Shown in pieces: positions 43,929-59,361 of a stretch of 62,204 nt of DNA; position 1 is the first letter of the stretch, and every line of letters starts with the position of its first letter. Position numbers and translations under genes: made by a program. The stretch covers positions 1 through 62,204 of the forward strand of contig CANJXF010000022.1 of NCBI GenBank assembly GCA_947478865.1, written 5' to 3'. Origin of the DNA: Verrucomicrobiales bacterium (GTDB lineage Bacteria > Verrucomicrobiota > Verrucomicrobiia > Limisphaerales > CANJXF01). The notes under the pieces are model-generated. The model was not told the origin of the DNA. It was given only the letters and a program-made list of their open reading frames with translations, and searched no databases.

Positions 43929-46394
43929 ATGAATTGGCTCGTCCGTATTTTGTCTCTGATGGCATTGACCGTTCCTGCTCTTTCAGCGGAGCAGGTGAAT
44001 TATCTCAAGGAAATCAAACCGCTTCTTTCCGGGGCTTGCTACCAATGCCACAGCGAAACGCAACAGAAAGGCGGTTTGCGTTTAGACACCGGCGCAAACG
44101 CACGCAAAGGCGGAGAGAAGGGGGCGGTCATTGTTCCCGGAAGAAGTGACGAGAGCCTTTTGATCAAGGCAGTGATGGGCGTTGCAAAAGATTTGCCCCG
44201 CATGCCTTACAAGAAATCTCCGCTCGATGACGAGAAGGTCGCACTGCTTAAAAAGTGGATTGATGAAGGCGCGAAGTCTCCCGCCAACGAGAAAGCGGAA
44301 TCTGTTTTGCATTGGGCTTTCGTCCCATCGCCAGCCGTGGTTCCGGTTCCCTCAGTTAAGCAAACCAAGTGGCCGCGCAACGACATTGATCACTTCATTC
44401 TCGCTCGGTTGGAAAAACAGCACATCAAACCTTCGCCCGAAGCGGATCGCGTCACGCTGATTCGCCGTGTCAGCCTGGATCTCACCGGTCTTCCTCCGAG
44501 CATCGCGGAGGTGGATGAGTTTCTGAAAGACAAGCGCGCCGACGCTTACGACAGGTTGGTGGAACGGTTGCTTGGTTCCAAACATTACGGCGAACGTTGG
44601 GGGCGGCATTGGCTCGACGCCGCGCGTTACGCGGATTCCAACGGCTACAGCATTGATGCGCCGCGGCAGATTTGGAAATATCGCGATTGGGTCATTCACG
44701 CCTTCAACCGCGACATGCCCTTTGACGAATTCACGATCGATCAATTGGCGGGCGATTTGCGACCCAACGCAACCCTTGAACAAAAGGTTGCCACCGGTTT
44801 CCATCGCAACACGCAGATCAATCAGGAAGGCGGAATCGACAAGGAACAGTTTCGCGTCGAATCGATTGTCGATCGCGTCAACACCACGGCGGGAACCTGG
44901 CTGGGTCTGACGATGGGATGCGCGCAATGTCACGATCACAAATTCGATCCGATCGCGCAGAAGGAGTATTATCAACTCTTCGCGTTTCTCAATAACCAGG
45001 AGGAGCCGGACCTGGAAATCCCCAGTGCACCCGATCTTCAACGTCAGGAAACCTTGCGCAAAGAATTCACGAGCGCGGAAAACGAGCTTAAGGCTTATGT
45101 CGATTCCGCTGCTGGCGATGTCTCAATGTGGCAAAAATCGCTTTCTCCCGAGCAGGTCGCGAAATTGAAGCCCGAGATCAAAACCGTTTTGGAAACGCCT
45201 TTCGACAAGCGGACGCTGAAGCAAAAGCTGGTGCTGGTGGATCAAATCCGCAAGGGCAACGAGGATTACAAAAGGAAGAAGTCTCAATTTACGAAATTCG
45301 AGAAAACGAAACTCGATCTGACGACTACCATGGTTTTGCAAGAACGAAGCGAGCCGAGGCAATCGTATCTATTCATCAAGGGCGATTTCACGCGCCACGG
45401 CGACATCGTCACTCCCGGCGTGCCGAAAATTCTGCCGCCATTGCCCGCTGAAACGAAAAACCCAAACCGTCTCGACCTGGCGAAGTGGCTGGTTGATCCA
45501 AAGAATCCGTTGCCCGCGCGCGTCACGATGAACCGCATCTGGATGCAGTATTTCGCCAAAGGAATCGTAGAGACGGAAAATGATTTTGGCACGCAAGGCT
45601 CCGGTCCGTCGCATCCTGAATTGCTCGATTGGCTCGCGAATGAATTCCTCAGACAGAAGTGGAGCCAGAAGGCGATGCACCGGCTTATTGTGACTTCCGC
45701 AACCTACCGCCAGTCGTCACGCGCTCGTCCGGATTTGAACATCCTCGATCCCTACAACAAATTGCTCGCGCGACAAAATCGCTTTCGTCTCGATGCTGAA
45801 GTGGTGCGCGATGTCGAACTCACCGTGAGCGGTTTACTCAACGACGAAGTTGGCGGCCCAAGTGTTTTCCCGCCCATTCCCGATGGCGTAATGACTCTCG
45901 GCCAAAGCAAACGCGAATGGAAAACCAGCGAAGGGCCCGCTCGCTATCGTCGCGGCATGTACACCTTTTTCTATCGCGCCACGCCTCCGCCCGGCTTGAT
46001 GGTTTTTGATGCGCCAGAAACCACCAGCACTTGCACCCGCCGCCTTCGCTCCAACACGCCGTTGCAATCGCTCACGCTCCTGAACGACGCTGGGTTCATG
46101 GAGTTTGCGCAAAGCCTCGCTCTTCGGGTGTTGAAGGAGGTTCCGGAGAATGACAACGCCCGCATCGATCACGCCTTTCGACTTTGCCTCTCGCGTGAAC
46201 CGAAGCGCGATGAGCAACAGCGATTAAGGGAACTGCTCGATTCGCAGTTGAAGAGCTACGATTCGCAGCCGGAGGAAGCGAAAGCGTTGTCGCCGAAAAA
46301 TCTCCCCGCCCACGCAAACGTAAAGCAACTGGCCGCGTGGACCACGGTTTCGCGCGTCTTGCTGAACCTCGACGAAACCATCACGCGGGAATAG
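43929..46394 (+). CDS. PSCyt1-DUF1549-DUF1553 protein
   Basis: 821 residues, the compact form of this PVC family. Signal peptide NWLVRILSLMALTVPALSAE. The PSCyt1 haem motif is CYQCH. DUF1549 has GERWGRHWLDAARYADSNGY and a second CxxCH in GCAQCHDHKFDPI. A charged helical linker at about 375-465 is followed by DUF1553 with NRIWMQYFAKGIVETENDFG, ATYRQSSRARPD and RRLRSNTPLQSL. It lacks the C-terminal extension of the paralogue at 29229. It is followed 14 bases later by DUF1501. Confidence 0.92.
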   Translation: MNWLVRILSLMALTVPALSAEQVNYLKEIKPLLSGACYQCHSETQQKGGLRLDTGANARKGGEKGAVIVPGRSDESLLIKAVMGVAKDLPRMPYKKSPLDDEKVALLKKWIDEGAKSPANEKAESVLHWAFVPSPAVVPVPSVKQTKWPRNDIDHFILARLEKQHIKPSPEADRVTLIRRVSLDLTGLPPSIAEVDEFLKDKRADAYDRLVERLLGSKHYGERWGRHWLDAARYADSNGYSIDAPRQIWKYRDWVIHAFNRDMPFDEFTIDQLAGDLRPNATLEQKVATGFHRNTQINQEGGIDKEQFRVESIVDRVNTTAGTWLGLTMGCAQCHDHKFDPIAQKEYYQLFAFLNNQEEPDLEIPSAPDLQRQETLRKEFTSAENELKAYVDSAAGDVSMWQKSLSPEQVAKLKPEIKTVLETPFDKRTLKQKLVLVDQIRKGNEDYKRKKSQFTKFEKTKLDLTTTMVLQERSEPRQSYLFIKGDFTRHGDIVTPGVPKILPPLPAETKNPNRLDLAKWLVDPKNPLPARVTMNRIWMQYFAKGIVETENDFGTQGSGPSHPELLDWLANEFLRQKWSQKAMHRLIVTSATYRQSSRARPDLNILDPYNKLLARQNRFRLDAEVVRDVELTVSGLLNDEVGGPSVFPPIPDGVMTLGQSKREWKTSEGPARYRRGMYTFFYRATPPPGLMVFDAPETTSTCTRRLRSNTPLQSLTLLNDAGFMEFAQSLALRVLKEVPENDNARIDHAFRLCLSREPKRDEQQRLRELLDSQLKSYDSQPEEAKALSPKNLPAHANVKQLAAWTTVSRVLLNLDETITRE

Positions 46395-46408
46395 ATCGGC
46401 TGAAAACT

Positions 46409-47878
46409 ATGTTAAGTGCGCCCAACGATTTTCAGTCAGACAAACTTCGCGAGTCCACGCGTCGCCAATTCTTCGGCCGATGCGTCATGGGCCTAGGCTC
46501 CATCGCGCTCGCCTCCTTGCTGAGCGAGCAAAAGCTTTTCGCCGCTGAGCCAGTCAAGCTGGTCAATCCGCTGGATCCGCGTCCTGGCCATTTTCCCGCC
46601 AAAGTCAAAAACATCATCTACCTTTTCATGGCCGGAGGCCCGAGCCAGCTTGAGTTGTTCGATTACAAACCGAAGCTGGTCGAGCTCAACGGCAAACCGA
46701 TTCCCGATTCCTATCTCAAGGGAAAACGATTCGCGTTCATGGATACTTTTGCCAAGGACCCGCCCAAGCTTCTTGGCACGCGCCGCAAATTCGCGCAGCA
46801 CGGCAACAGTGGCGCATGGGTTTCAGAATTGTTCCCGCACACCGCCGGCATCGTGGATGACATCTCCCTCGTTCATTCGTGCGCGACGGATGTTTTCAAT
46901 CATGCACCCGCCAAGTTGTTCATGAACACCGGTTCCTCGCAGTTCGGCCGGCCGAGCATGGGCGCATGGGTGACTTATGGAATCGGGAGTGAATCGAAAG
47001 ACTTACCCGGCTTCGTCGTCTTGCAATCCGGCCCGCGTGGTCCGCGCGGCGGTGCGGTGAATTGGGCGAGCGGATTTTTACCGACGACCTATCAAGGCGT
47101 CCCGTTGCGTGGACAAGGCGAGCCGATTTTAAATTTGAGCAGCCCGCAAGGGGTGAGCGCCAATCGTCAACGCCAGACTATCGATGCCATTCGCGATTTG
47201 AATTTGAAACGGTTGGTGGAAACCGGCGATGAAGAAATTCGCACCCGCATTTCGGCCTACGAAATGGCCTATCGCATGCAAAGCAGCGCGCCGGAGTTGA
47301 TCGATCTTTCCAGCGAAACGCAGGCGACAAAAGATTTATACGGCATCACGGAAGGCGAACCCTCCTTCGCGCGAAATTGCCTGCTCGCTCGCCGCCTGGT
47401 GGAACGCGGGTCGCGCTTTGTGCAACTTTATCACACCAATTGGGATAGCCACGGCGGCCCGGGCGAAGACCTCGAAAAATCTTTCGAGAAAGTCACTCGC
47501 GAAGTGGACCAACCGTGCGCCGCGCTCATCAAGGATCTCAAACAACGCGGCATGCTCGATGACACGCTGGTCATCTGGGGTGGCGAATTCGGCCGCACGC
47601 CGATGGGTGAGAATCGCGATTCCACCGGTCGCAATCATCACATTGATTCATTCACGATGTGGTTCGCCGGCGCGGGTGTGAAAGCCGGGCAAGTCCTCGG
47701 CCAGACGGACGAGCTTGGCTTCAGCCCTGTCGAAGATCGTTGCCACGTCCACGATATCCACGCGACCATCCTGCACTTGCTCGGGCTCGAACACACCAGG
47801 CTGACCTTCCGCTTCCAAGGTCGCGACTTCCGCCTGACCGATGTCCATGGAGAATTGATCCACAAGCTCATGGCGTAA
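46409..47878 (+). CDS. DUF1501 Tat-exported protein
   Basis: 489 residues from ATG 46409; the frame is open 72 bases upstream into the previous gene. A twin-arginine signal is visible (STRRQFFGR, then a hydrophobic stretch ending KLFAAE). Family motifs are YLFMAGGPSQLELFDYKP, WGGEFGRTPMGE, GRNHHIDSFT and VHDIHATILHLLGL. The potential metal-binding Asp and His residues are retained. It is the second DUF1501 of the window and pairs with the upstream PSCyt1 protein. The function is unknown. Confidence 0.9.
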   Translation: MLSAPNDFQSDKLRESTRRQFFGRCVMGLGSIALASLLSEQKLFAAEPVKLVNPLDPRPGHFPAKVKNIIYLFMAGGPSQLELFDYKPKLVELNGKPIPDSYLKGKRFAFMDTFAKDPPKLLGTRRKFAQHGNSGAWVSELFPHTAGIVDDISLVHSCATDVFNHAPAKLFMNTGSSQFGRPSMGAWVTYGIGSESKDLPGFVVLQSGPRGPRGGAVNWASGFLPTTYQGVPLRGQGEPILNLSSPQGVSANRQRQTIDAIRDLNLKRLVETGDEEIRTRISAYEMAYRMQSSAPELIDLSSETQATKDLYGITEGEPSFARNCLLARRLVERGSRFVQLYHTNWDSHGGPGEDLEKSFEKVTREVDQPCAALIKDLKQRGMLDDTLVIWGGEFGRTPMGENRDSTGRNHHIDSFTMWFAGAGVKAGQVLGQTDELGFSPVEDRCHVHDIHATILHLLGLEHTRLTFRFQGRDFRLTDVHGELIHKLMA

Positions 47879-47999: not shown

Positions 48000-50324
48000 G
48001 TGAAGGAAGTTGAACAAGCAATTACCAGGGAAGGCGGGGCTGAAGAGGCGTTGCGCGAGTGCATCGCCATTCTCGAATTCACTCTGGACGCAGCCCAGGT
48101 CGGCGATTGGAATCTGGATTTGATCCACGACACGGCGCAGCGTTCGCTGCGGCATGATCAGGTCTTTGGTTACAAGGAGCCGGTGCCGGAATGGGGCTTC
48201 CGGAAATTCATCGAGCACGTGCATCCTGATGATCGCGCCGAAATTGAACGGACATTTCGCGAGGCGGTGGAGCAGCAGAAACCATGGCGTTTCGAATGCC
48301 GCGTGATCTGGCCCGATGGCAGCACCCATTGGATCGCCGCGCATGGTCGGATCTACCGGACAGCCGATGGAAAACCGACGCGCATGTTGGGTATTGTCCT
48401 GAACATTACCGGCCGGAAACAGGCGGAGGAATCGATCCGCGAAAGCGACGAGCGAATTCGTCTGGCGACCGAAGCGACCGGGGTGGGGATCTGGGAATGG
48501 AATGTCATCACCGATAAAATTCGCTGGGACGCACAGATGTTCCGGATTTATGGACTTGCTCCGACGAAAGACGGTTTTGTGTCCTACGCCGTCTGGAGGG
48601 ATGCTGTGGTGCCGGAGGATTTGCGCCAACAAGAGGAGATATTGCGAGACACGATTCGCCGTTGCGGCCACGGCACCCGCCAATTCCATATCCGCAGGTA
48701 TGACGACAAGCAGATTCGCCACATCCAATCCGTGGAGACGGTGCGCACCAACGCACAGGGTCAGGCGGAATGGGTGGTGGGGACGAACCTTGATACGACT
48801 GAGCGCAAGCGGGCGGAGGATGCCTTGCGGGAGAGCGAAGGCCGGCTGCGGTTGTTCATCGAGCATGCGCCTGCCGCCATTGCGATGTTCGACCGGGACA
48901 TGCGTTACCTTGCCGCGAGTCGGCGCTGGAAGGAGGATTATCGTGTGGAGGGAGATATTCTTGGACGTTCCCACTACGATGTCTTTCCTGATGTTCCGGA
49001 ACGATGGAAGGAAATCCATCGGCGCGGCCTGGCCGGAGAAATTTTGAGCGCCGACCAGGACCTCTTCGAGCGGAATGACGGAAAGATTCATTGGATTAAG
49101 TGGGAAGTGCGCCCCTGGTACATGGGTAACAGAGAAGTGGGTGGGATATTGATCGCCGCGGAAGAAGTGACCGCGCGCGTGCAGGCGCAGCAGGCGTTGA
49201 GAGAAAGCGAAGAGCGCCTGAGCGCGTTGGCGGAGAACATTCCGCAACTGGCGTGGATGGCCGACGAGAACGGTTGGCTTTTCTGGTACAACAAGCGGTG
49301 GTACGATTACACGGGAATGACCTTCGAAGAGATGCAGGGCTGGGGTTGGGAAAAGGTGCATCATCCCGACCACTTGCAGCGCGTTATCGCGAGCTGGAAG
49401 CCGGCGCTGGCCGAGGGCAAGCCGTGGGAAGACACCTTTCCGTTGCGTGGCAAAGACGGAAAATACCGGTGGTTCCTCTCTCGCGCTTTTCCGATTCGCG
49501 ACACGAATGGAAAAATCTCGCGTTGGTTCGGCACCAATACGGACATTACGGAATTGCGCGAAACGCAGGAGGAATTGAAGGAGGCGCAGAAAAATCTGCA
49601 ACTGCACGCGTCCAGACTGGAGGCGACTGTTGCCGAGCGCACGGCCAAGTTGCAGGAAATCATCGGCGAACTGGAGGCGTTTTCCTACAGCCTCTCGCAT
49701 GACATGCGCGCGCCGCTGCGGGCGATTCAAGGCTTCACGCAAATTGCGCTGGAGGAATGCGGCGAGAAGGCGAAGCCGTTTCTCAGCAAGGTGGTCAGCT
49801 CCGCACGGCGCCTCGACCGCATGATTCAAGCCGTCCTTTCCTACACCCGCACGTCCCGACAGGAGATTCGGATTGAGCCTGTGGACGTGGACCGGCTGTT
49901 GCACGAAATCATTTTGGAACGCCCGGAGTTGCAGCCCCCTAATGCCGAGGTGAGGGTGGAAAGGTCGCTGCTGCCGATGCAGGGGCACGAGGGATCGTTG
50001 ACCCAGTGCCTGACAAACCTTCTCGGAAACGCGGTGAAATTTGTCCCTCGCGGAGTCACGCCGCGCGTGCGCATTTTTAGCGAGGTGACCGGCAACGCCG
50101 TGCGGCTGTGGATCGAGGACAACGGCATCGGAATCGAACCGGAGGCGCAGCGCCGACTCTTCGAGATGTTCTACCGGGTGAACAGTGAAAATGAATATGA
50201 AGGCACCGGCATCGGGCTGGCAATCGTGCGCAAAGCCATCGAGCGAATGGGAGGTCAGGTGGGGGTGGAATCCCAACCCGGTCGCGGCAGCCGCTTCTGG
50301 GTGCAGTTGCCGAAAGTGGAATAG
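48000..50324 (+). CDS. soluble multi-PAS sensor histidine kinase
   Basis: 774 residues from a GTG start, with no signal or membrane segment. Four PAS/PAC units lie at about 20-145, 150-270, 275-400 and 405-525, each ending in a TGRKQAEES-type linker. A coiled coil follows, then HisKA with the phospho-His in SYSLSHDMRAPLRA, and HATPase_c with LTNLLGNAVKF, EDNGIGIE and GTGIGLAIVRKAIE. The H-box type resembles phytochrome-like kinases. No response regulator is adjacent, so it is an orphan. It lies directly upstream of the VWA/ABC operon, but a link is not shown. Confidence 0.92.
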   Translation: MKEVEQAITREGGAEEALRECIAILEFTLDAAQVGDWNLDLIHDTAQRSLRHDQVFGYKEPVPEWGFRKFIEHVHPDDRAEIERTFREAVEQQKPWRFECRVIWPDGSTHWIAAHGRIYRTADGKPTRMLGIVLNITGRKQAEESIRESDERIRLATEATGVGIWEWNVITDKIRWDAQMFRIYGLAPTKDGFVSYAVWRDAVVPEDLRQQEEILRDTIRRCGHGTRQFHIRRYDDKQIRHIQSVETVRTNAQGQAEWVVGTNLDTTERKRAEDALRESEGRLRLFIEHAPAAIAMFDRDMRYLAASRRWKEDYRVEGDILGRSHYDVFPDVPERWKEIHRRGLAGEILSADQDLFERNDGKIHWIKWEVRPWYMGNREVGGILIAAEEVTARVQAQQALRESEERLSALAENIPQLAWMADENGWLFWYNKRWYDYTGMTFEEMQGWGWEKVHHPDHLQRVIASWKPALAEGKPWEDTFPLRGKDGKYRWFLSRAFPIRDTNGKISRWFGTNTDITELRETQEELKEAQKNLQLHASRLEATVAERTAKLQEIIGELEAFSYSLSHDMRAPLRAIQGFTQIALEECGEKAKPFLSKVVSSARRLDRMIQAVLSYTRTSRQEIRIEPVDVDRLLHEIILERPELQPPNAEVRVERSLLPMQGHEGSLTQCLTNLLGNAVKFVPRGVTPRVRIFSEVTGNAVRLWIEDNGIGIEPEAQRRLFEMFYRVNSENEYEGTGIGLAIVRKAIERMGGQVGVESQPGRGSRFWVQLPKVE

Positions 50325-50368: not shown

Positions 50369-50469
50369 GTCCTCCTTTCTCGACTGAACCATGAGGCCAT
50401 CAAAAGTTGCAGCCACTATTTTTGTCGATCTGCCCACGGGGATTGTTTAGCTTCGCCCATCTAATCGTT

Positions 50470-52305
50470 TTGAATTTTCTCGCCCCAACGGCTTTTTGGT
50501 TTGCGGCCACGGTTCCGATCGTGGTGCTCTTTTATTTGCTCAAGCGCAAACGGGTGGTGAAGCTCGTTTCCAGCACGTTGCTCTGGCAAAAATTTCTCGC
50601 TGAGACACAGGCCAACGCACCGTTTCAAAAGCTGCGGCACAACTGGCTTCTTCTGTTGCAACTGCTGCTGTTGATCCTCGCGATCTTTGCGCTGAGCCGT
50701 CCTTATTTTTCCGGCAATTCCAAAAGCGCTGCGCTGCGCGTGGTGATTCTCGATGCGTCCGCTTCCATGCAAAGCACGGACGATGCTCCGTCGCGTTTTG
50801 AGAAAGCGCGCGCCGAAGCGCTCAAGTGGGTGGACGGGTTGCGCGATCAGGATCAGATGCTCGTGCTTCAGGCCGCGGCGAACACCGAAGTCAAACAATC
50901 CGCCACGAGCAATAAAACCGCCTTGCGCCGCGCGCTGGAATCCTGCGCTGTGACCGATTCGCCGACGCACATCAAGGAAGCGCTCAAGCTCGCCGAGACG
51001 TTGACGCGCGATCAAACCGAGGCGGAAATTCATCTCTTCAGCGACGGTGCGGTGGGTGATCTCACGGAATTTGAAAACAAAGGTTTGCGCCTCGTTTATC
51101 ATCGCGTCGGCGAGCGGGCCAACAACCTGGGAATCACTGCGCTGGATGTCCGGTCGAATCCCGAGGATCCGAAACAACGGGCGGTCTACACCAGCGTGCA
51201 AAATTTTTCCACTAATTCACACGAAGCGGAGCTGGAGTTGCGTTTTGAAAATGAAATCCAGGAAGTGCGTCCGCTGAAATTGGAACCCGGGGATACGTCG
51301 CCGCAGGTTTTCCTGGCGACGCAGGCGAAGGACGGCGTCTTCTCGGTGAACCTGAAAGTGAAGGATGATTTGGCGGCCGATAATCAGGCTTCGATGTTCA
51401 GCCAATTGCCGCAACCGGTCAAAATTCTGCTTGTGAGCCGCGGAAATCGTTTTCTTGAAAAAGCCCTCCGCGCCGCCGTCAACGTTGAGCTTTCCTCGGT
51501 CCAGGAATTGAACGATTCGGCGGATGGATTCGACCTCGTGGTGCTCGACGACATTTTACCCGTCGTCTGGCCGAAAGGAAATGTGCTCGCTGTTCACGTT
51601 GCCAACACAAATTGGTTTGATGGCGTTTCCAAAGCAGAGAACCCCGCGATTGTTGATTGGAAGAATACGCATCCGCTCTTGCGCTACGTGAATTTTGACA
51701 ACGTGCAAATCAGCGAAACACTCGCCGTGAAGACTCCGACCTGGGCGCTCTCGCTGGTGGAAGCGCAACAGACTCCGCTCGTTCTGGCGGGGGAATTGGC
51801 GCGGCAGAAAATTGTCTGGATCGGTTTCGACACGCTGCAAAGCACCTGGCCGTTGCGCATTTCATTTCCGATTTTTATCGCAAACGCCGTGGAGTATTTG
51901 AATCCAGCATCAGCGAAAAACAGCCAACTCTTTGTCCATGCGGGCGAGCCGTTTCGCTTTGCTTTGGTGCAAAGCGCCAAGAATGCCGAGCTCACGTTGC
52001 CTGATGGCAAAAAGCGGATGCTGGAAATCGATTCCACCGCTCGCGAAATTGTTTTCGGCGAGACAGCAAAGCAGGGGACCTATCGATTGCGCGTAGGAAC
52101 GAATGATACTGCGTTTTGCGTAAATCTTCTCGATGCCGCTGAAAGCAACACCAAGCCGAAAACGGAGTTGCAGTTCGGAAGATATTCCAAGGTTGAAGCG
52201 ACGAAATTAAAACGCGCCAACATGGAATTGTGGCGTTGGATTGCGGGAGCAGCGCTGGCGGTCCTGATGTTCGAGTGGTGGTATTACCATCGGAGGACGG
52301 CGTGA
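50470..52305 (+). CDS. BatA/VWA-domain membrane protein
   Basis: About 611 residues. The TTG at 50470 is chosen because it gives the family opening NFLAPTAFWF; the frame is open to 50407. Topology: a helix at about 8-24, a loop with LLKRKRVVKLVSSTLLWQ, and a second helix LLLLQLLLLILAIFALSRPYF (BatA N-terminal domain). A von Willebrand A domain follows with an intact DxSxS metal site (LDASASM) and FSDGAVGD. A long periplasmic part and a last helix near the C-terminus complete it. BatA-type proteins usually work with a MoxR ATPase and a DUF58 protein, neither of which is nearby. Its stop overlaps the next start. Confidence 0.85.
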   Translation: MNFLAPTAFWFAATVPIVVLFYLLKRKRVVKLVSSTLLWQKFLAETQANAPFQKLRHNWLLLLQLLLLILAIFALSRPYFSGNSKSAALRVVILDASASMQSTDDAPSRFEKARAEALKWVDGLRDQDQMLVLQAAANTEVKQSATSNKTALRRALESCAVTDSPTHIKEALKLAETLTRDQTEAEIHLFSDGAVGDLTEFENKGLRLVYHRVGERANNLGITALDVRSNPEDPKQRAVYTSVQNFSTNSHEAELELRFENEIQEVRPLKLEPGDTSPQVFLATQAKDGVFSVNLKVKDDLAADNQASMFSQLPQPVKILLVSRGNRFLEKALRAAVNVELSSVQELNDSADGFDLVVLDDILPVVWPKGNVLAVHVANTNWFDGVSKAENPAIVDWKNTHPLLRYVNFDNVQISETLAVKTPTWALSLVEAQQTPLVLAGELARQKIVWIGFDTLQSTWPLRISFPIFIANAVEYLNPASAKNSQLFVHAGEPFRFALVQSAKNAELTLPDGKKRMLEIDSTAREIVFGETAKQGTYRLRVGTNDTAFCVNLLDAAESNTKPKTELQFGRYSKVEATKLKRANMELWRWIAGAALAVLMFEWWYYHRRTA

Positions 52306-53264
52306 CGGCAAAATTATCCTCGTCCAGTAGTGTCCGCCTTCTGCTGTGGACTGTCGTTGCTTTTGCAATTGTTATTCTGTTTCTCCTTTTTTCCGTTCCA
52401 TCACACCCAAAGCGGGTGGTAATTGTTTACACCTCCCAGGATCAGATTTACGCCGAGCCGATTTTCGCGGAATTTACCAAACAAACTGGAATCAAAGTTC
52501 GCGCCGCCTATGACAGCGAAGCGGTGAAAACGGTCGGATTGGTTAACCGCCTGATCGCCGAGAAAAATCATCCGCAATGCGACCTGTTCTGGAACAATGA
52601 AGAATTGCGCACACGGCAATTGGAGAAGCAAGGCCTGCTGCGCCAGACGAATTCCTGGGAATCATTCGGTTTTCGCAAACGCCAACTCGTGATCAACACG
52701 AATCAGCTCAAGAACCCAAACTGCCCTCGCACCTTGCTTGCGCTCACCAACGAAGTTTGCCGAGGCAAGGTCGCGCTGGCGTATCCGCTGTTCGGAACCA
52801 CGGCGACACATTTTCTCGGGCTGCGTGAGACTTTGGGTGAAACGAATTGGCAATCGTGGTGCCGTGCTCTCGCTGCCAACAAACCTTTGCTCGTTGATGG
52901 TAATTCCGTCGTTGTAAAACTCGTGGGCAGCGGCGATGCGTGGGTGGGATTAACCGATTCCGATGACGTGCGCGCCGGGAAACGCGAAGGTTTGCCGATC
53001 GAAGGAATTGATTTACGGGAATTTGATTTTTTCATTCGCAACACTGTGTCCGTGATTCGCAACGCGCCGCATCCCGAAGCCGCACAGAAGCTTTTTGAAT
53101 TCTTGCAGAGTGGCGCAATCAACGAAAAATTGTGTTCCGCCGGTGCGGTGGAAGGATTCGCGGCGCGTGGCGTCTCAATTACGCCGCCGACCATTGATTG
53201 GGAGCGACTTGTGCGTGATCAGGAAGCGGGCATGACGCAGTTGAAACAAATTTTTCTGCGATGA
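52302..53264 (+). CDS. ABC importer solute-binding protein, iron(III)/thiamine type, membrane-anchored
   Basis: 320 residues from GTG 52302, which overlaps the upstream TGA and has a strong GGAGG ribosome site six bases before it. The N-terminal hydrophobic segment (LLLWTVVAFAIVILFLLF) looks like an uncleaved anchor or signal. The rest is a periplasmic binding protein of the Fe3+/spermidine/thiamine class: VVIVYTSQDQIYAEPIFAEFTKQTGIKV, QCDLFWNNEELRTRQLEKQGLL, GSGDAWVGLTDSDD. Its stop overlaps the start of the permease gene (ATGA), so the two proteins are almost certainly partners. The ligand is not evident. Confidence 0.88.
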   Translation: MTAKLSSSSSVRLLLWTVVAFAIVILFLLFSVPSHPKRVVIVYTSQDQIYAEPIFAEFTKQTGIKVRAAYDSEAVKTVGLVNRLIAEKNHPQCDLFWNNEELRTRQLEKQGLLRQTNSWESFGFRKRQLVINTNQLKNPNCPRTLLALTNEVCRGKVALAYPLFGTTATHFLGLRETLGETNWQSWCRALAANKPLLVDGNSVVVKLVGSGDAWVGLTDSDDVRAGKREGLPIEGIDLREFDFFIRNTVSVIRNAPHPEAAQKLFEFLQSGAINEKLCSAGAVEGFAARGVSITPPTIDWERLVRDQEAGMTQLKQIFLR

Positions 53265-55690
53265 ACTGGACTCTCCTTCAAAACAGTTTGCTGGTGAGCG
53301 GATTTACGGCGTTGTTTTCAATCGTAATGGGATTGTTCGCGGCGCTTTGTTTTGCCGGGATAAACGCGCGGTGGAGAAAGTTTCTTTTTGCCCTCGCGAT
53401 TATCTCAGTGGCTCTTCCGCCTTTCTTGGTTACGAATTGCTGGCTGCACTACCTCGGTTTGACTGGGGCCTGGCGTCCATGGTTGCCGTTGAATATTTTT
53501 TCACTCGGCGGAACGATCTGGATTTTGACGCTGATGCATTGGCCCATCACAACGTTTTTGGTGATAGCTGCATGGCGCCGCTTGGAGCAGTCGCAGATCG
53601 ATGTCGATCCGTTGCTGACGGGGAGTTCATTGCTGAGATGGTTGCTGCTGCCACTGGCCGGAAGTTCCTTGGCGCAAGCGGCGGTAATTACATTCGTTTT
53701 GGCGCTCAACAATTTTGCGGTGCCCGCAATTTTGCAGGTGAAGGTTTTTCCAGCGGAGCTCTGGGTCAATTTCAACACGACCTTCGATTACAAATTCGTG
53801 ATCGCGTTGAGTTGGCCGATGATCATCATTCCGGCTTTGTTGCTGATTGCGCTTCGTGGCCTGTCGATTGGCTCGTTTGAAAAACGCCGCGAAATTTCCG
53901 CCGGTCTGTTCCGGCGACAATTGGGCCGGTCCTGGTTCGGCGTTTCCGCTACATTTTGCTGCGCGGCAATTTTCTTTTCCGCGATCCTGCCGCTTTCGCA
54001 ATTAATGCTGCGCCAGGCAACGTGGAGCCACTTGTTTCCAGCGTTTACCGCAGGAAAGCCGGCTCTGCTTCATTCCATTTTGTTCGCAACGCTGGCGGCG
54101 ACTGCGATTGCCGGGGTTTCAATTCTTTCCGCCCGCTTCCCCCTGCGAATCGTCTGGTTACCATTTTTAGTTCCGGGTGTGCTGCTCGGGATTTCTTTCA
54201 TCTGGCTGTTGAACCGACCTCCGTTGATCGCTTTCTATCAGAGCATTGGCGTAGTAGTTCTCGCATTTGCCATCCGGTATCTCGCGCCGGGTTGGAATGT
54301 CATCGCACACTCCTTTCGAACGATGGACCGGAGTTTATCCGACGCGGCAATTCTGGAAGGGGCGAATCACCGGCAACTGTTTTGGCAGGTTCATTTGCCG
54401 CAAATTTTTCCGCAGCTCTGCGTGGCTTGGTACGTGAGTTATTTGTTCTGCCTTTGGGACGTGGAAACGCTGGTATTGATCGTGCCGCCCGGCAGCGAAA
54501 CGCTTTCGCTGCGCATCTTCAACCTGCTTCACTACGGCCACAATGCCCAAGTTGACGCGCTCTGCATTCTTTTGCTTGGAGTAGCCGTGCTGCCCCTGAT
54601 TGTTTCGGCGTTGTTTAAGCCTGGAAGGTTTCCTGTGTCGATCTTGCGAACTCTGCCCGCGCTGATCCTGCCGACTTTGTTTATGGTTGGTTGTTCCGAT
54701 TCGTCGGCAAGGAGCGGTGCAAATCATGTTCCTATCCGGAGCCAGATATTTTCGCACGTGGAAATAATTGGGTTGCGCGGGACCGGATCTGGGCAATTCA
54801 ACAAACCGCGTTCTCTCGCGCTGGATAAAAACGACAATCTGTTTGTCGTGGACATGACGGGGCGTGTGCAAAAATTTTCATCCAGCGGAGCGTTTCTCGC
54901 GAGCTGGCAGATGCCGCAGACCGACTTGGGGAAACCAAAGGGAATGTGTCGCGATGCGGATAAAAATATCGTCGTTTTGGAGCCTCACTACTCGCGGGTG
55001 AATCATTTCTCCCCTGAAGGAAGGCTGCTTTCGCAATGGGGAACTCATGGCACCAACTTGGGGCAGCTTGCTTTTCCTCGCGGAATTGCCGTGAATTCGC
55101 GCGGCGAAATGTTCGTGAGCGAATACGGATTAACCGAACGCGTGCAACGATTTTCTAACAAGGGCGAAAAGTTCTTAGACTCGTTTGGCAAACCGGGCGA
55201 CGGAGCAGGGGAATTCAATCGAGCGGAAGGGCTCGGAATTGATTCTCGGGATCAGGTTTTCGTCGCGGATTCGTGCAATCATCGCATTCAGGTTTTCGCA
55301 TCCGACGGGAAATTTATTACTAGTTTCGGCAAAGCTGGAACGGGAGTTGGCGAATTGAGTTACCCCTACGATGTGCGGGTTGATGGGGCGGGCTTACGGT
55401 TCATTTGCGAGTTTGGAAATAGTCGCATCCAGATCTTTGATGCGAAGAATCAGCCGCTGGAGATGCTCGGTGAAGCCGGTCCTGAGCCGGGACAATTTGC
55501 CAATCCCTGGAGCATCGATCTGGATTCGCGCGGGAATCTCTATGTGGCGGATGCGTCAAACCATCGAGTGCAGAAATTCATGCGGCGCGAGCCGCTGGCT
55601 CTTGCCCCTGGCGGGCTCGTCAGCGTTTCTAAATCCAAGGATAACCTTGCAATCGGTGCGCATCCGGCGGAAACAGATGTGACCCGATGA
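53261..55690 (+). CDS. ABC permease fused in frame to a six-bladed NHL-repeat lipoprotein
   Basis: 809 residues. Residues 1-455 are a double permease of the FbpB/ThiP type, with two EAA-like loops, the clearer being LSDAAILEGANHRQLFWQVHLP near 358. From about 459 the sequence resembles a lipoprotein start (hydrophobic stretch, then FMVGCSDSS). From about 485 to 780 there are six NHL repeats (FNKPRSLALDKNDNLFVVD, FPRGIAVNSRGEMFVSE, FANPWSIDLDSRGNLYVAD and three others), a beta-propeller. No stop separates the parts. The propeller would lie outside the cytoplasm beside the binding protein. Fusion of these two families is unfamiliar to me. Confidence 0.88.
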   Translation: MNWTLLQNSLLVSGFTALFSIVMGLFAALCFAGINARWRKFLFALAIISVALPPFLVTNCWLHYLGLTGAWRPWLPLNIFSLGGTIWILTLMHWPITTFLVIAAWRRLEQSQIDVDPLLTGSSLLRWLLLPLAGSSLAQAAVITFVLALNNFAVPAILQVKVFPAELWVNFNTTFDYKFVIALSWPMIIIPALLLIALRGLSIGSFEKRREISAGLFRRQLGRSWFGVSATFCCAAIFFSAILPLSQLMLRQATWSHLFPAFTAGKPALLHSILFATLAATAIAGVSILSARFPLRIVWLPFLVPGVLLGISFIWLLNRPPLIAFYQSIGVVVLAFAIRYLAPGWNVIAHSFRTMDRSLSDAAILEGANHRQLFWQVHLPQIFPQLCVAWYVSYLFCLWDVETLVLIVPPGSETLSLRIFNLLHYGHNAQVDALCILLLGVAVLPLIVSALFKPGRFPVSILRTLPALILPTLFMVGCSDSSARSGANHVPIRSQIFSHVEIIGLRGTGSGQFNKPRSLALDKNDNLFVVDMTGRVQKFSSSGAFLASWQMPQTDLGKPKGMCRDADKNIVVLEPHYSRVNHFSPEGRLLSQWGTHGTNLGQLAFPRGIAVNSRGEMFVSEYGLTERVQRFSNKGEKFLDSFGKPGDGAGEFNRAEGLGIDSRDQVFVADSCNHRIQVFASDGKFITSFGKAGTGVGELSYPYDVRVDGAGLRFICEFGNSRIQIFDAKNQPLEMLGEAGPEPGQFANPWSIDLDSRGNLYVADASNHRVQKFMRREPLALAPGGLVSVSKSKDNLAIGAHPAETDVTR
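54621..54637 (+). promoter_or_regulatory. possible internal ribosome site and GTG start for a free NHL lipoprotein
   Basis: GGAAGG at 54623-54628 lies six bases before an in-frame GTG at 54635 (codon 459). Translation from there would give a signal peptide ending in a lipobox-like FMVGC, followed by the NHL propeller. The site could yield a separate lipoprotein from the same frame as the fusion. Confidence 0.4.
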
Positions 55691-58560
55691 ACGTTCAATT
55701 CACCAATCCGCTCCTCCTGTTGCTGTTCGTTCCAGCAATGGCTTGGATCATTTGGCTGGCTTGGAAATCTGACGTGCACATCAGCGCTTGGCGCCGCTGG
55801 ACTGCTTTTGTTTTGCGAGCTTTGATCGCCTTTGCCATCCTCCTCGCGCTGGCTGGATTGCAATGGAAAAAGCCGCTCGAAGGAATGAATGTTTATTTCC
55901 TGCTCGACCGCTCGGACAGCATTCCATCCGCGCAACAGGAAGCGGCGCGCGATTTGGTGAACAAGCTTTCGGCCCAAAAAAAGAAGACCGACAAGGCAGG
56001 TATCTTGGTCTTCGGGACCGATGCGGGAATCGAATCAACCCCGAACGCCGCGATCAATTTGCAGAAAATTCAAGCGGTGGTTGGAACGGAACGCACGGAC
56101 ATAGCCGGAGCGATTCGTCTCGGCACCGCGGCGTTTCCGGAGACCGGACAAAAGCGGCTGGTACTGTTTTCCGACGGCAACGAAAACATTGGTGACGCTC
56201 AAAATGCATTACTCACCGCCAAGTCGTTGGGTGTGACGCTCGACGTTATCCCGCTCGGCGTTTCGCGCGCGAATGATGTGGCCGTGCAGAAACTTGGACT
56301 TCCGAGCAATGTGAAAAAAGGACAGGCGTTCGAAGTGAAAATCTTCGCGCAATCCGATCAGGCGCAAAGTGTCAACGTTCGCCTCTATCGCAACGAACAA
56401 CTTCTCGGTGAACAAAAGGTTGATCTCGCGGCAGGGAAAAATCTGTTCACGTTTCCACAGACGCTGAGCGAACCTGGTTTTTACAGTTACAACGTGCTGA
56501 TCGAGGCGCCCGGCGATTTGTTGCCGCAGAACAATCGCGCCAGCAGTTTTATCAATGTTCGGGGAAATCCTCGCGTTCTCGTGGTTTCCAGTGAGCCGAA
56601 ACAGGACGCGCAATTGGTGTCGGCGTTGCGGTCGTCAAAGCTCGAAGTGAACCCCACCGACATCAGCAAATTTCCGGCGACGCTCGCAGAAATTCAGAGT
56701 TACGACAGCATCTTTCTCAGCAACGTTTCGGCGGGTGATCTCAGTTCTGAAATGATGCATTTGCTCGAAAGCGCCGTGCGAGATTTTGGGGTTGGCTTGG
56801 TTTGTGTCGGCGGCGATCAAACTTACGCAGCCGGAAGCTATCGCGGGACTCCGCTCGAAGCGACGTTGCCGGTGGAAATGGAGCTGAACAGCAAAAAAGT
56901 TTTGCCGAGCGGCGCGCTGGTTTTGGTGGTTCACGCCACGGAATTTCCAAATGGCAACCAATGGGCGCGGGACATTGCGTTTGCCGCGCTGGACTCCCTT
57001 GGTCCGCAAGACGAAATGGGAATCGTCTTCTGGGATGGAGGTCAAAATAACAAGTGGCTTTTTCCCTTGGCAAAGGTGGGGGACAAGAAGGAAATGGGAC
57101 GGCAAATTACGGGCATGAATCCCGGCGATATGGGAGATTTTCAAGGGCCAATGGCAATGGCTCATGACGCGTTGAAAAAATCCACTGCGAATTTAAAACA
57201 CATGGTGGTGTTCAGTGATGGTGATCCCGCCGCGCCAAAACAACAACTTGTGCAGGAAATTGTCGGCGATAAAATCACGATCAGCACCGTGATGATTGGA
57301 GGGCACGTTTCGCCCGAGACGATGACCTGGATGGCGGACCAAGGACGCGGTCGGTTTTACGACGTCCGCTCTGCCGGAGAGCTGCCTCAGATTTTCATCA
57401 AGGAAGCGGCGGTGATTTTGAAGTCGGCTATTTTCGAAGATCCATTTAAACCGCAGCTCGCCAGTTCGAGTGAGTTGATCCGCGGCATCGGTTCGGCGGA
57501 ATATCCGCAACTTCGTGGCTATGTATGCACGACGCCGAAAGCGCGCGCGGAAATTCCTTTGGTTACCGACAAAGGCGATCCGCTGCTCGCTCACTGGCAA
57601 TACGGTTTGGGTCGAGCAGTGGCGTTCACGTCAGACGCGAAAGCGAAGTGGGCGACGGATTGGATCGGCTGGAATAAGTTTCAGCAGTTCTGGTCGCAAG
57701 TGGCGCAATGGAGTTTGCGCCGGATCGAGAACGCTGACTTCAACACCGAGGTTGGAGTTGAAAACGGCGAGGGGCAAATCAGCGTCGAGGCAATTGATGC
57801 GCAGGGGAATTTTCGCAATTTCCTGAATTTGCAAACGGTGGTGGTGAGTCCAAAAGGTGAAAAGCAAACGGTTCGTCTGGAACAAACGGGGCCTGGACAC
57901 TACGAGGCGAAATTTCCGACGAAAGAAGTCGGTGCTTATCTAATGAATCTGATGGATTTGAAAGATGGCCAATTGCGCGGTTCTCAGATTTTGGGGGCGA
58001 GCGTGAATTACTCGCCAGAGTTCAGCGCATCAGAACCGAATCTGAACCTGCTGCGCCGATTGGCTGAGAACGGCGGTGGAAAAGTTCTGGAACCGGAGAT
58101 CGACAATCCATTTTTACACACCCGCCTGAAGACATTTCAACCCCGTGATTTGTGGGAATGGCTTTTGAAGTTTGCGATCATTCTTTTTCCACTCGATGTG
58201 GCAGTTAGGAGAATTCAGTTGGATCGAGAGGAATGGTTGAAAGCGACCAAGATTTTACGTCGATGGATTTTCTTTTGGAAACCTGACACTCGACCCGTCA
58301 AAACCGATGAATCGTTGGCGGCGTTGCTGAATCGACGCGATGAAGTTCGTTCGCAAAAGCTCGAAACCCAGGACGTGGTATCCGGGGAACGTTTATTCAC
58401 GCCGAAGAATCCGGCCAAGGTAGAAACACCAATGGAATCTGAGCGCGGAGTTATTCCTGAGCCGAGTAAAGCGGCACAAGGTCTTGCTAATGCTGCGCCT
58501 GAAAATACAACGAGCCGCTTGCTTGAAGCAAAGCGGCGCGCGCGTAAGAATATGGAATAA
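55687..58560 (+). CDS. large VWA / glutamine-amidotransferase-like membrane protein
   Basis: 957 residues, starting inside the stop of the previous gene (ATGA). Two N-terminal helices (LLLLLFVPAMAWIIWLAW and VLRALIAFAILLALAG) are followed by a VWA domain with DxSxS (LLDRSDS) and FSDGNENIGD. Further on is a class I amidotransferase-like region (VGLVCVGGDQTYAAGSY) without an obvious catalytic triad. A second VWA-like segment (VVFSDGDPAAP), beta domains and one more helix near 830 follow. The tail is basic and probably cytoplasmic (LLEAKRRARKNME). This architecture is common in PVC bacteria beside BatA-type genes. It closes the four-gene operon. Confidence 0.85.
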   Translation: MNVQFTNPLLLLLFVPAMAWIIWLAWKSDVHISAWRRWTAFVLRALIAFAILLALAGLQWKKPLEGMNVYFLLDRSDSIPSAQQEAARDLVNKLSAQKKKTDKAGILVFGTDAGIESTPNAAINLQKIQAVVGTERTDIAGAIRLGTAAFPETGQKRLVLFSDGNENIGDAQNALLTAKSLGVTLDVIPLGVSRANDVAVQKLGLPSNVKKGQAFEVKIFAQSDQAQSVNVRLYRNEQLLGEQKVDLAAGKNLFTFPQTLSEPGFYSYNVLIEAPGDLLPQNNRASSFINVRGNPRVLVVSSEPKQDAQLVSALRSSKLEVNPTDISKFPATLAEIQSYDSIFLSNVSAGDLSSEMMHLLESAVRDFGVGLVCVGGDQTYAAGSYRGTPLEATLPVEMELNSKKVLPSGALVLVVHATEFPNGNQWARDIAFAALDSLGPQDEMGIVFWDGGQNNKWLFPLAKVGDKKEMGRQITGMNPGDMGDFQGPMAMAHDALKKSTANLKHMVVFSDGDPAAPKQQLVQEIVGDKITISTVMIGGHVSPETMTWMADQGRGRFYDVRSAGELPQIFIKEAAVILKSAIFEDPFKPQLASSSELIRGIGSAEYPQLRGYVCTTPKARAEIPLVTDKGDPLLAHWQYGLGRAVAFTSDAKAKWATDWIGWNKFQQFWSQVAQWSLRRIENADFNTEVGVENGEGQISVEAIDAQGNFRNFLNLQTVVVSPKGEKQTVRLEQTGPGHYEAKFPTKEVGAYLMNLMDLKDGQLRGSQILGASVNYSPEFSASEPNLNLLRRLAENGGGKVLEPEIDNPFLHTRLKTFQPRDLWEWLLKFAIILFPLDVAVRRIQLDREEWLKATKILRRWIFFWKPDTRPVKTDESLAALLNRRDEVRSQKLETQDVVSGERLFTPKNPAKVETPMESERGVIPEPSKAAQGLANAAPENTTSRLLEAKRRARKNME

Positions 58561-58563
58561 AAT

Positions 58564-59361
58564 TTACTGGTTGCGGACTTCGAGTTGATTGTCCACCCGG
58601 TTAACACCCTGCATGGCTTTAACTTTGCTTTCGATGGATTGCTTTTCGCTATCTGAATTCACCATGCCGCGCAGAATCACGGTGCCGTTGGCAGATGTTT
58701 CAATGCGAACGCGCTGGGCTGTTTGAGGATTATCGGCACGCAATTGGGTTTGGATGCGTTGGGTCAAATCGTTGCTGGCAACCCCCGGTGCCCCAAAAGC
58801 CGATTCCGAACCACTGCTGCCAAAACTGCTGCCTGGGCGGGCGGAAATCTCCGCTGCGGGATCGTAAACATTGACCGATCCTTTCTGCCAGCCGGTGTCA
58901 CTCCTCATCGGAGCGCTGCTTGAAGGAGTAGAAGGCCGTTGCTGTGGCTGTCGCTGGTTGTAATTCGGATCTCGGCTGGCTCCAGCAGGTTCATTCATCT
59001 GCTCGGCGGCGGAACGCTGAACTTCGCTCGGAAGCTGATCTTTGACGATTATGTCGTTTTTGAACCAATCCACACCTTTGACGTTACGGGTCAATTGGGA
59101 AGCACGCTCTTTCTGCGCTGGATGGTCAACGAGCCCCGTGAGATGAACGTTTCCACGCCACGTGGAGACCTCGATGTCAGTATCTTTGACTAATGAGTCG
59201 TCCCCTAGTGCGGATTTCACGCGCGATGTGGTGCTCTTGTCGTCGATGTAGTTTCCAGTGCTTCGACTGTAGCGCGTTCCAGGGCGCCCCATTGAGCAGC
59301 CCACAAGCGCCACGGCGGCGCTCAATAGAATTAGAGATGTTAAATAGTTTTTGTGTTTCAT
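58564..59361 (-). CDS. lipoprotein with two BON domains
   Basis: 265 residues. The N-terminus is a lipoprotein signal with lipobox ALVGC, so the mature protein begins at about Cys22. BON domains lie at about 44-108 (TTSRVKSALGDDSLVKDTDIEV...GNVHLTGLVD) and 200-264 (LTQRIQTQLRAD...GTVILRGMVNSD). They are joined by a long low-complexity linker rich in Gln, Pro and Ser. BON proteins such as OsmY bind lipid or membrane surfaces and are often stress-induced. It is convergent with the VWA gene, three bases apart. Confidence 0.9.
   Translation of the reverse strand: MKHKNYLTSLILLSAAVALVGCSMGRPGTRYSRSTGNYIDDKSTTSRVKSALGDDSLVKDTDIEVSTWRGNVHLTGLVDHPAQKERASQLTRNVKGVDWFKNDIIVKDQLPSEVQRSAAEQMNEPAGASRDPNYNQRQPQQRPSTPSSSAPMRSDTGWQKGSVNVYDPAAEISARPGSSFGSSGSESAFGAPGVASNDLTQRIQTQLRADNPQTAQRVRIETSANGTVILRGMVNSDSEKQSIESKVKAMQGVNRVDNQLEVRNQ

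Follow-up and report, generated by a model that had tools for sequence, protein, structure and literature searches.

The 62,204-nucleotide contig CANJXF010000022.1 of a Verrucomicrobiales bacterium, hereafter the window, carries four overlapping genes, A to D, in which two membrane proteins with von Willebrand factor A (VWA) domains enclose a solute-binding protein and a permease fused to a beta-propeller. Judging from sequence comparison with relatives, the four genes form the 3' portion, now detached, of a longer operon with the order CL4-MoxR-DUF58-A-B-C-D. Gene C holds, between its permease part (C1) and its propeller (C2), a lipoprotein signal whose cysteine is invariant, which suggests that one gene yields both a permease and a lipoprotein. 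The window is the entire contig C22 of a 4.4 Mb assembly that is 97% complete (host genome G000), and the features discussed below are as follows.

50470 (TTG) to 52305, + strand: gene A, BatA-type VWA protein with two N-terminal membrane helices, a VWA domain with intact DxSxS and a C-terminal membrane helix
52302 to 53264, + strand: gene B, FbpA-type solute-binding protein, N-terminally anchored
53261 to 55690, + strand: gene C, FbpB-type 12-helix permease, internal lipoprotein signal and six-bladed NHL propeller
55687 to 58560, + strand: gene D, VWA/GATase1-like membrane protein
53261 to 54610, + strand: C residues 1–450, permease part C1, from profile, structure model and match to Thermus FbpB (9j4r)
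53600 to 53653, + strand: coupling (EAA) loop of permease half 1, about three residues shorter and without EAA across the whole family
54341 to 54400, + strand: coupling (EAA) loop of permease half 2, here canonical (DAA...G...LP)
54635 to 54694, + strand: internal lipoprotein signal of C, with lipobox Cys478 at 54692–54694, invariant in 84/84
54749 to 55585, + strand: NHL beta-propeller C2, C residues 497–775, from domain search and structure model
52302 to 52305, + strand: A/B overlap, GTGA
53261 to 53264, + strand: B/C overlap, ATGA
55687 to 55690, + strand: C/D overlap, ATGA

A conserved four-gene unit

The four genes lie where the initial annotation had placed them, and the four-base overlaps that it described at the three junctions were confirmed. 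The longest open frame of A begins at a TTG at 50407; the relatives favor the start at 50470 (MNFLAP..., an invariant Met column). By Pfam and NCBIfam, A consists of BatA (47 bits) and VWA_2 (55 bits) domains, B of a bacterial solute-binding domain, C of a binding-protein-dependent (BPD) permease domain (a weak match in Pfam but a clear one in NCBIfam and in the profile comparison) followed by NHL, and D of VWA and GATase1_like domains.

Of 146 genomes belonging to the same order, 82 matched the permease part used as the query. We drew gene maps of 106 distinct loci, taken from the matching genomes together with named records of Verrucomicrobiota, several of which bear the name Pedosphaera or Limisphaerales. 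The order A-B-C was kept in 67 of the 84 loci with enough sequence, and D followed C in 78 of 96. Overlaps of the form NTGA were counted at 48 A/B, 34 B/C and 47 C/D junctions among the mapped loci. Furthermore, the pairwise distances of A, B, C1, C2, D, MoxR and DUF58 were correlated (r 0.50–0.91), as expected for mostly vertical co-inheritance. Because order and overlaps are conserved in relatives, a chance neighborhood of the four genes was rejected, and the refuting conditions that the initial annotation had set came out in favor of the unit: the homologs are not usually scattered, and no ABC (ATP-binding cassette) ATPase gene lies near them.

Going by the names of the relatives, the host order of the operon is Pedosphaerales/Limisphaerales. 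Among 388 genomes drawn over the phylum, only that of the window matched at E ≤ 1e-60, a result that leaves room for rare or divergent occurrences. This order-specific operon is also present in the public records L202, L209, L260, L276 and L206, whose titles name Akkermansia muciniphila or Omnitrophota; they are probably mislabeled metagenome-assembled genomes.

The internal lipoprotein signal of gene C

The structure model of C (pLDDT, the predicted local distance difference test, 90.5) shows the 12-helix permease, then a helix at residues 459–474, a weakly predicted segment at 477–485, and a six-bladed propeller resembling NHL domains. Cys478 is present in all 84 fused proteins, preceded by Gly in 76, Ser in 4 and Ala in 4, and upstream of it stand a hydrophobic stretch and a mostly positive region. 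The linker joining permease and propeller has a mean conservation of 29% and varies from 21 to 200 residues. Unfused propeller proteins (L037, L206 and the f2 genomes) start with a lipoprotein signal. Two products from one gene are thus suggested by an invariant cysteine in a variable linker and by unfused homologs that begin with the same signal; in most lineages C1 and C2 are fused and the signal is kept inside the protein. Assuming that both ends of the permease lie inside, the signal helix would put Cys478 on the outside, where Lgt and LspA work. In one relative (L228:10001–12859), the linker before the lipobox extends to about 200 residues with internal near-repeats, remains in frame and still ends in the conserved Cys.

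The flanking proteins also have large exposed parts. In A and D, N- and C-terminal membrane helices flank the VWA domains (the model of D, with a pLDDT of 71, was used solely for helix positions). The metal site of A (DxSxS; D95, S97, S99 and D192) is invariant in the relatives; the first VWA domain of D retains an intact DxSxS, and the second has lost it (H-x-x-E-F). Together with the 12 helices, signal helix and propeller of C and with B, a lipoprotein in the majority of relatives, this agrees with the large extracytoplasmic parts that had been predicted for all four products.

The importer half and the detached genes

B matches FbpA (7w3w) by sequence with an E of 3e-23, with 1d9v as a further FbpA reference. 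Its lipobox Cys is present in most relatives and absent from the B of this genome. A conserved Asp-Ser-Asp-Asp (DSDD) replaces the Tyr-Tyr iron ligands of FbpA, NNYY aligning with TDSDD, so that iron as the ligand is not assured. C1 aligns with Thermus FbpB (9j4r) along its full length (profile E 3e-19; Foldseek E 3e-15). The half-2 EAA loop is canonical in this C and in most members and degenerate in several families; the half-1 loop is shortened in every member.

Where are the genes that usually accompany such proteins? The initial annotation held that MoxR and DUF58 are absent, and neither lies beside A to D in the window. The genome and the family, on the other hand, tell otherwise. In relatives the order is CL4-MoxR-DUF58-A-B-C-D, with DUF58 upstream of A in 57 of the 63 loci having at least 1.2 kb of upstream sequence and MoxR in 35 of the 56 having at least 3.2 kb; neither was upstream in 5 of these 56. 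In this genome, a matching DUF58 stands alone on contig C14 (81% identical to the operon copy of a relative) and a matching MoxR on contig C39 (82% identical to the orthologue of a relative), the remaining MoxR and DUF58 copies being of far lower similarity. It is because of these matching genes on C39 and C14 that we regard the operon in the window as one part of a split whole. The same detachment from MoxR and DUF58 is seen in G062, G079, G106, G044 and the named record L200. CL4 (L049:865–2799), a protein of ~640 residues with N-terminal membrane helices and then a long helical region, precedes MoxR in at least 19 loci and matched no family in Pfam or NCBIfam at the thresholds applied.

The lineages in which the parts lie apart give an indication of how the operon was assembled. 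Neither B nor C is found in G087, G049 or the more distantly related G007 and G025. The operon of the first two reads CL4-MoxR-DUF58-A-D with A and D 16–17 nt apart, and that of the last two DUF58-A-D, with A adjoining D. In the f2 genomes, A-B-C1 stands at one place and C2-D at another, C2 being unfused, and in G097, DUF58-A, B-C and D are at three separate places. Parts of the operon persist even where scattered. Because A stands directly before D in lineages that lack B and C, the simplest reading is that an FbpA-FbpB cassette plus an NHL lipoprotein was probably inserted between A and D of an older, Bat-like MoxR-DUF58-A-D operon.

A motif search found no ABC ATPase in any of the 106 loci, and the earlier claim that the importer lacks one holds for the locus. 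Elsewhere in the genome, a candidate exists. Contig C88 (L111:5329–6069) encodes an FbpC/MalK-class ATPase of the UgpC/PotA type (246 aa, no TOBE domain) with no permease near it. Of the remaining BPD permeases in the genome, two pairs are Opp-type and two pairs adjoin an ATPase. What the initial annotation called an import system without an ATPase is more aptly seen as half an importer, with its ATPase, if it has one, encoded at another site. Many genomes with C1 hold a relative of the C88 ATPase as an orphan, which is often flanked by a GcvT-like gene and one that we take to be phosphoglycerate-mutase-like; orphan members of the branch also occur in G097, G020 and G071, and the G070 candidate groups with sulfate ATPases. 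A match at E below ~1e-64 was found in 47 of 82 genomes with C1 and 7 of 64 without it, counts that are uncorrected for ancestry. We tentatively propose the orphan C88 ATPase and C1 as a candidate pair on these sequence grounds. The TOBE domain of the orphan is also lost in the near relatives G005, G062 and G127, and most others keep it. A linked ATPase was seen only in a paralogous importer, L084 (G021:C17), where a 376-aa ATPase follows a second FbpA-FbpB pair; this ordinary, complete importer shares its genome with an ATPase-less one.

Around the operon, promoter-like and terminator-like sites showed no excess over shuffles, and none promoter-like was on the operon strand. A histidine kinase with several PAS domains (48000–50324, same strand) ends ~150 bases before the operon, and a two-BON-domain lipoprotein-like protein (58564–59361, opposite strand) ends four bases after D. 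Further upstream (43929–47878), overlapping frames encode what are presumably a large cytochrome-type protein and then a DUF1501-like protein, a pairing frequent in Planctomycetes and Verrucomicrobia.

Known systems, proposed working and alternatives

Two known systems come nearest to the set, Bat-type MoxR-DUF58-VWA operons and FbpABC importers. As in the Bat operons of the Bacteroides aerotolerance type, the order MoxR, DUF58, BatA-type VWA is found in relatives, and A has the BatA N-terminal domain with a metal-site VWA. The linkage of MoxR and DUF58 to the VWA genes is seen in most relatives and not at this locus, where the two are on other contigs. Unlike Bat operons, the set has FbpA-like, FbpB-like and NHL lipoprotein parts between the VWA proteins, and CL4, which lacks a family match. 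With FbpABC ferric importers it shares a binding protein and a two-in-one 12-helix permease homologous over the full length. However, the set lacks defining features of FbpABC: FbpC is not linked, and the Tyr-Tyr ligands are replaced. It further differs in its shortened half-1 loop and in the fusion of a lipoprotein propeller to the permease.

MoxR (45 bits to bpMoxR), VWA and propeller also occur together in MoxR-vWA-beta-propeller ternary systems, where the propeller is C-terminal to the VWA in the same protein (Kaur et al. 2020, PMC7159879; Pfam PF20030). Membership was rejected on architecture, the propeller here being an NHL lipoprotein behind a permease. Among type I importers, the sharing of ATPases is well documented (MsmX and MsmK; PMC7658222): importers that lack one of their own draw on one encoded elsewhere, as proposed here; those importers are for sugars, whereas the permease here is FbpB-type and its pairing only proposed. 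A membrane protein and an exported protein are made as one chain in FbcH of Bradyrhizobium, a cytochrome b/c1 polyprotein cut at an internal signal. That signal is of the non-lipoprotein type, in contrast to the lipobox and ABC permease in C. In the literature searched, we found no publication on an importer-centered VWA operon or on an internal lipobox in a permease, which is not proof of absence.

How might such a set work? C would be translated as one chain, in which the twelve helices and the signal helix bring the lipobox to the outer face; Lgt and LspA would then lipidate the chain and cut it at the lipobox, releasing the propeller from the permease as a lipoprotein. B would hand its ligand to the permease, which would be powered by an ABC ATPase encoded elsewhere, the C88 orphan being the best candidate. 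A, D and the propeller would be the periplasmic parts of one assembly, matured or regulated from the cytoplasm by MoxR and DUF58. We give the whole of this, from the split-operon origin through the cut at the lipobox and the distant ATPase to the single assembly, about an even chance. That C is a natural polyprotein whose cutting at the lipobox supplies its two parts in matched amounts, and that MoxR, the VWA proteins and an Fbp-type importer cooperate in a single envelope machine with no dedicated ABC ATPase, is a proposal that we hold tentatively, at somewhat less than even chances.

Several points weigh against the proposed working. The half-1 loop is shortened throughout the family, so that the permease may couple to an ABC ATPase in a changed way or no longer at all. 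The co-occurrence of ATPase and C1 takes no account of ancestry and rests on an E-value cut, and half-2 EAA quality did not significantly predict an orphan ATPase (p = 0.056). In G087 and the f15 genomes the ATPase adjoins sugar-type permeases, so that the C88 orphan may be shared or simply left over. It is also possible that G087 and G049 lost B-C, rather than preserving the state before its insertion.

Has the importer half ceased to transport, leaving B, the permease and the propeller as a receptor or scaffold for the VWA proteins and MoxR, with MoxR (AAA+) as the sole ATPase? The absence of a linked ABC ATPase, the shortened half-1 loop, the half-2 loop degenerate in several families and the replaced ligands of B are all in its favor. 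However, the half-2 loop is canonical in most members, this one included, the permease is conserved along its whole length, and orphan FbpC/MalK-class ATPases are present in G000, G097, G020 and G071; we therefore consider this explanation unlikely. Alternatively, an ordinary importer and an ordinary Bat operon might be neighbors by chance, as the lineages with blocks apart (G097, G011 and f2) could suggest, but dozens of families retain the gene order and the 4-bp overlaps, and the genes diverge together, which makes this the least credible of the explanations considered.

For C itself, the continuous frame in 84 proteins and the in-frame fusion kept across families would also fit a single uncut chain, in which a 13th helix tethers the propeller and the Cys is retained for lipid anchoring or another reason. 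The small residue at −1 in 84/84, with the hydrophobic stretch and positive region, fits signal peptidase II instead, the linker is free to vary, and unfused copies occur as separate lipoproteins, so that an uncut C appears rather unlikely to us, if worth taking seriously. The propeller might also be made separately from a translation start inside C, and in the window the GTG at 54635, which GAAGG precedes, would be a good lipoprotein start. Across the 84 genes, however, only a strict ribosome-site motif gave a slight excess (4/84), and this origin is very improbable. As a general source of the propeller it was rejected, ATG or ATG/GTG starts being no commoner than in control stretches.

MoxR-VWA operons are widespread chaperone operons, and few of their clients are known. 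A lineage with a VWA pair built around an importer and a propeller points to a concrete candidate client. If C is cut as proposed, its invariant internal lipobox would mean that a single cysteine decides whether a bacterial gene can give a transporter and a lipoprotein by cutting.
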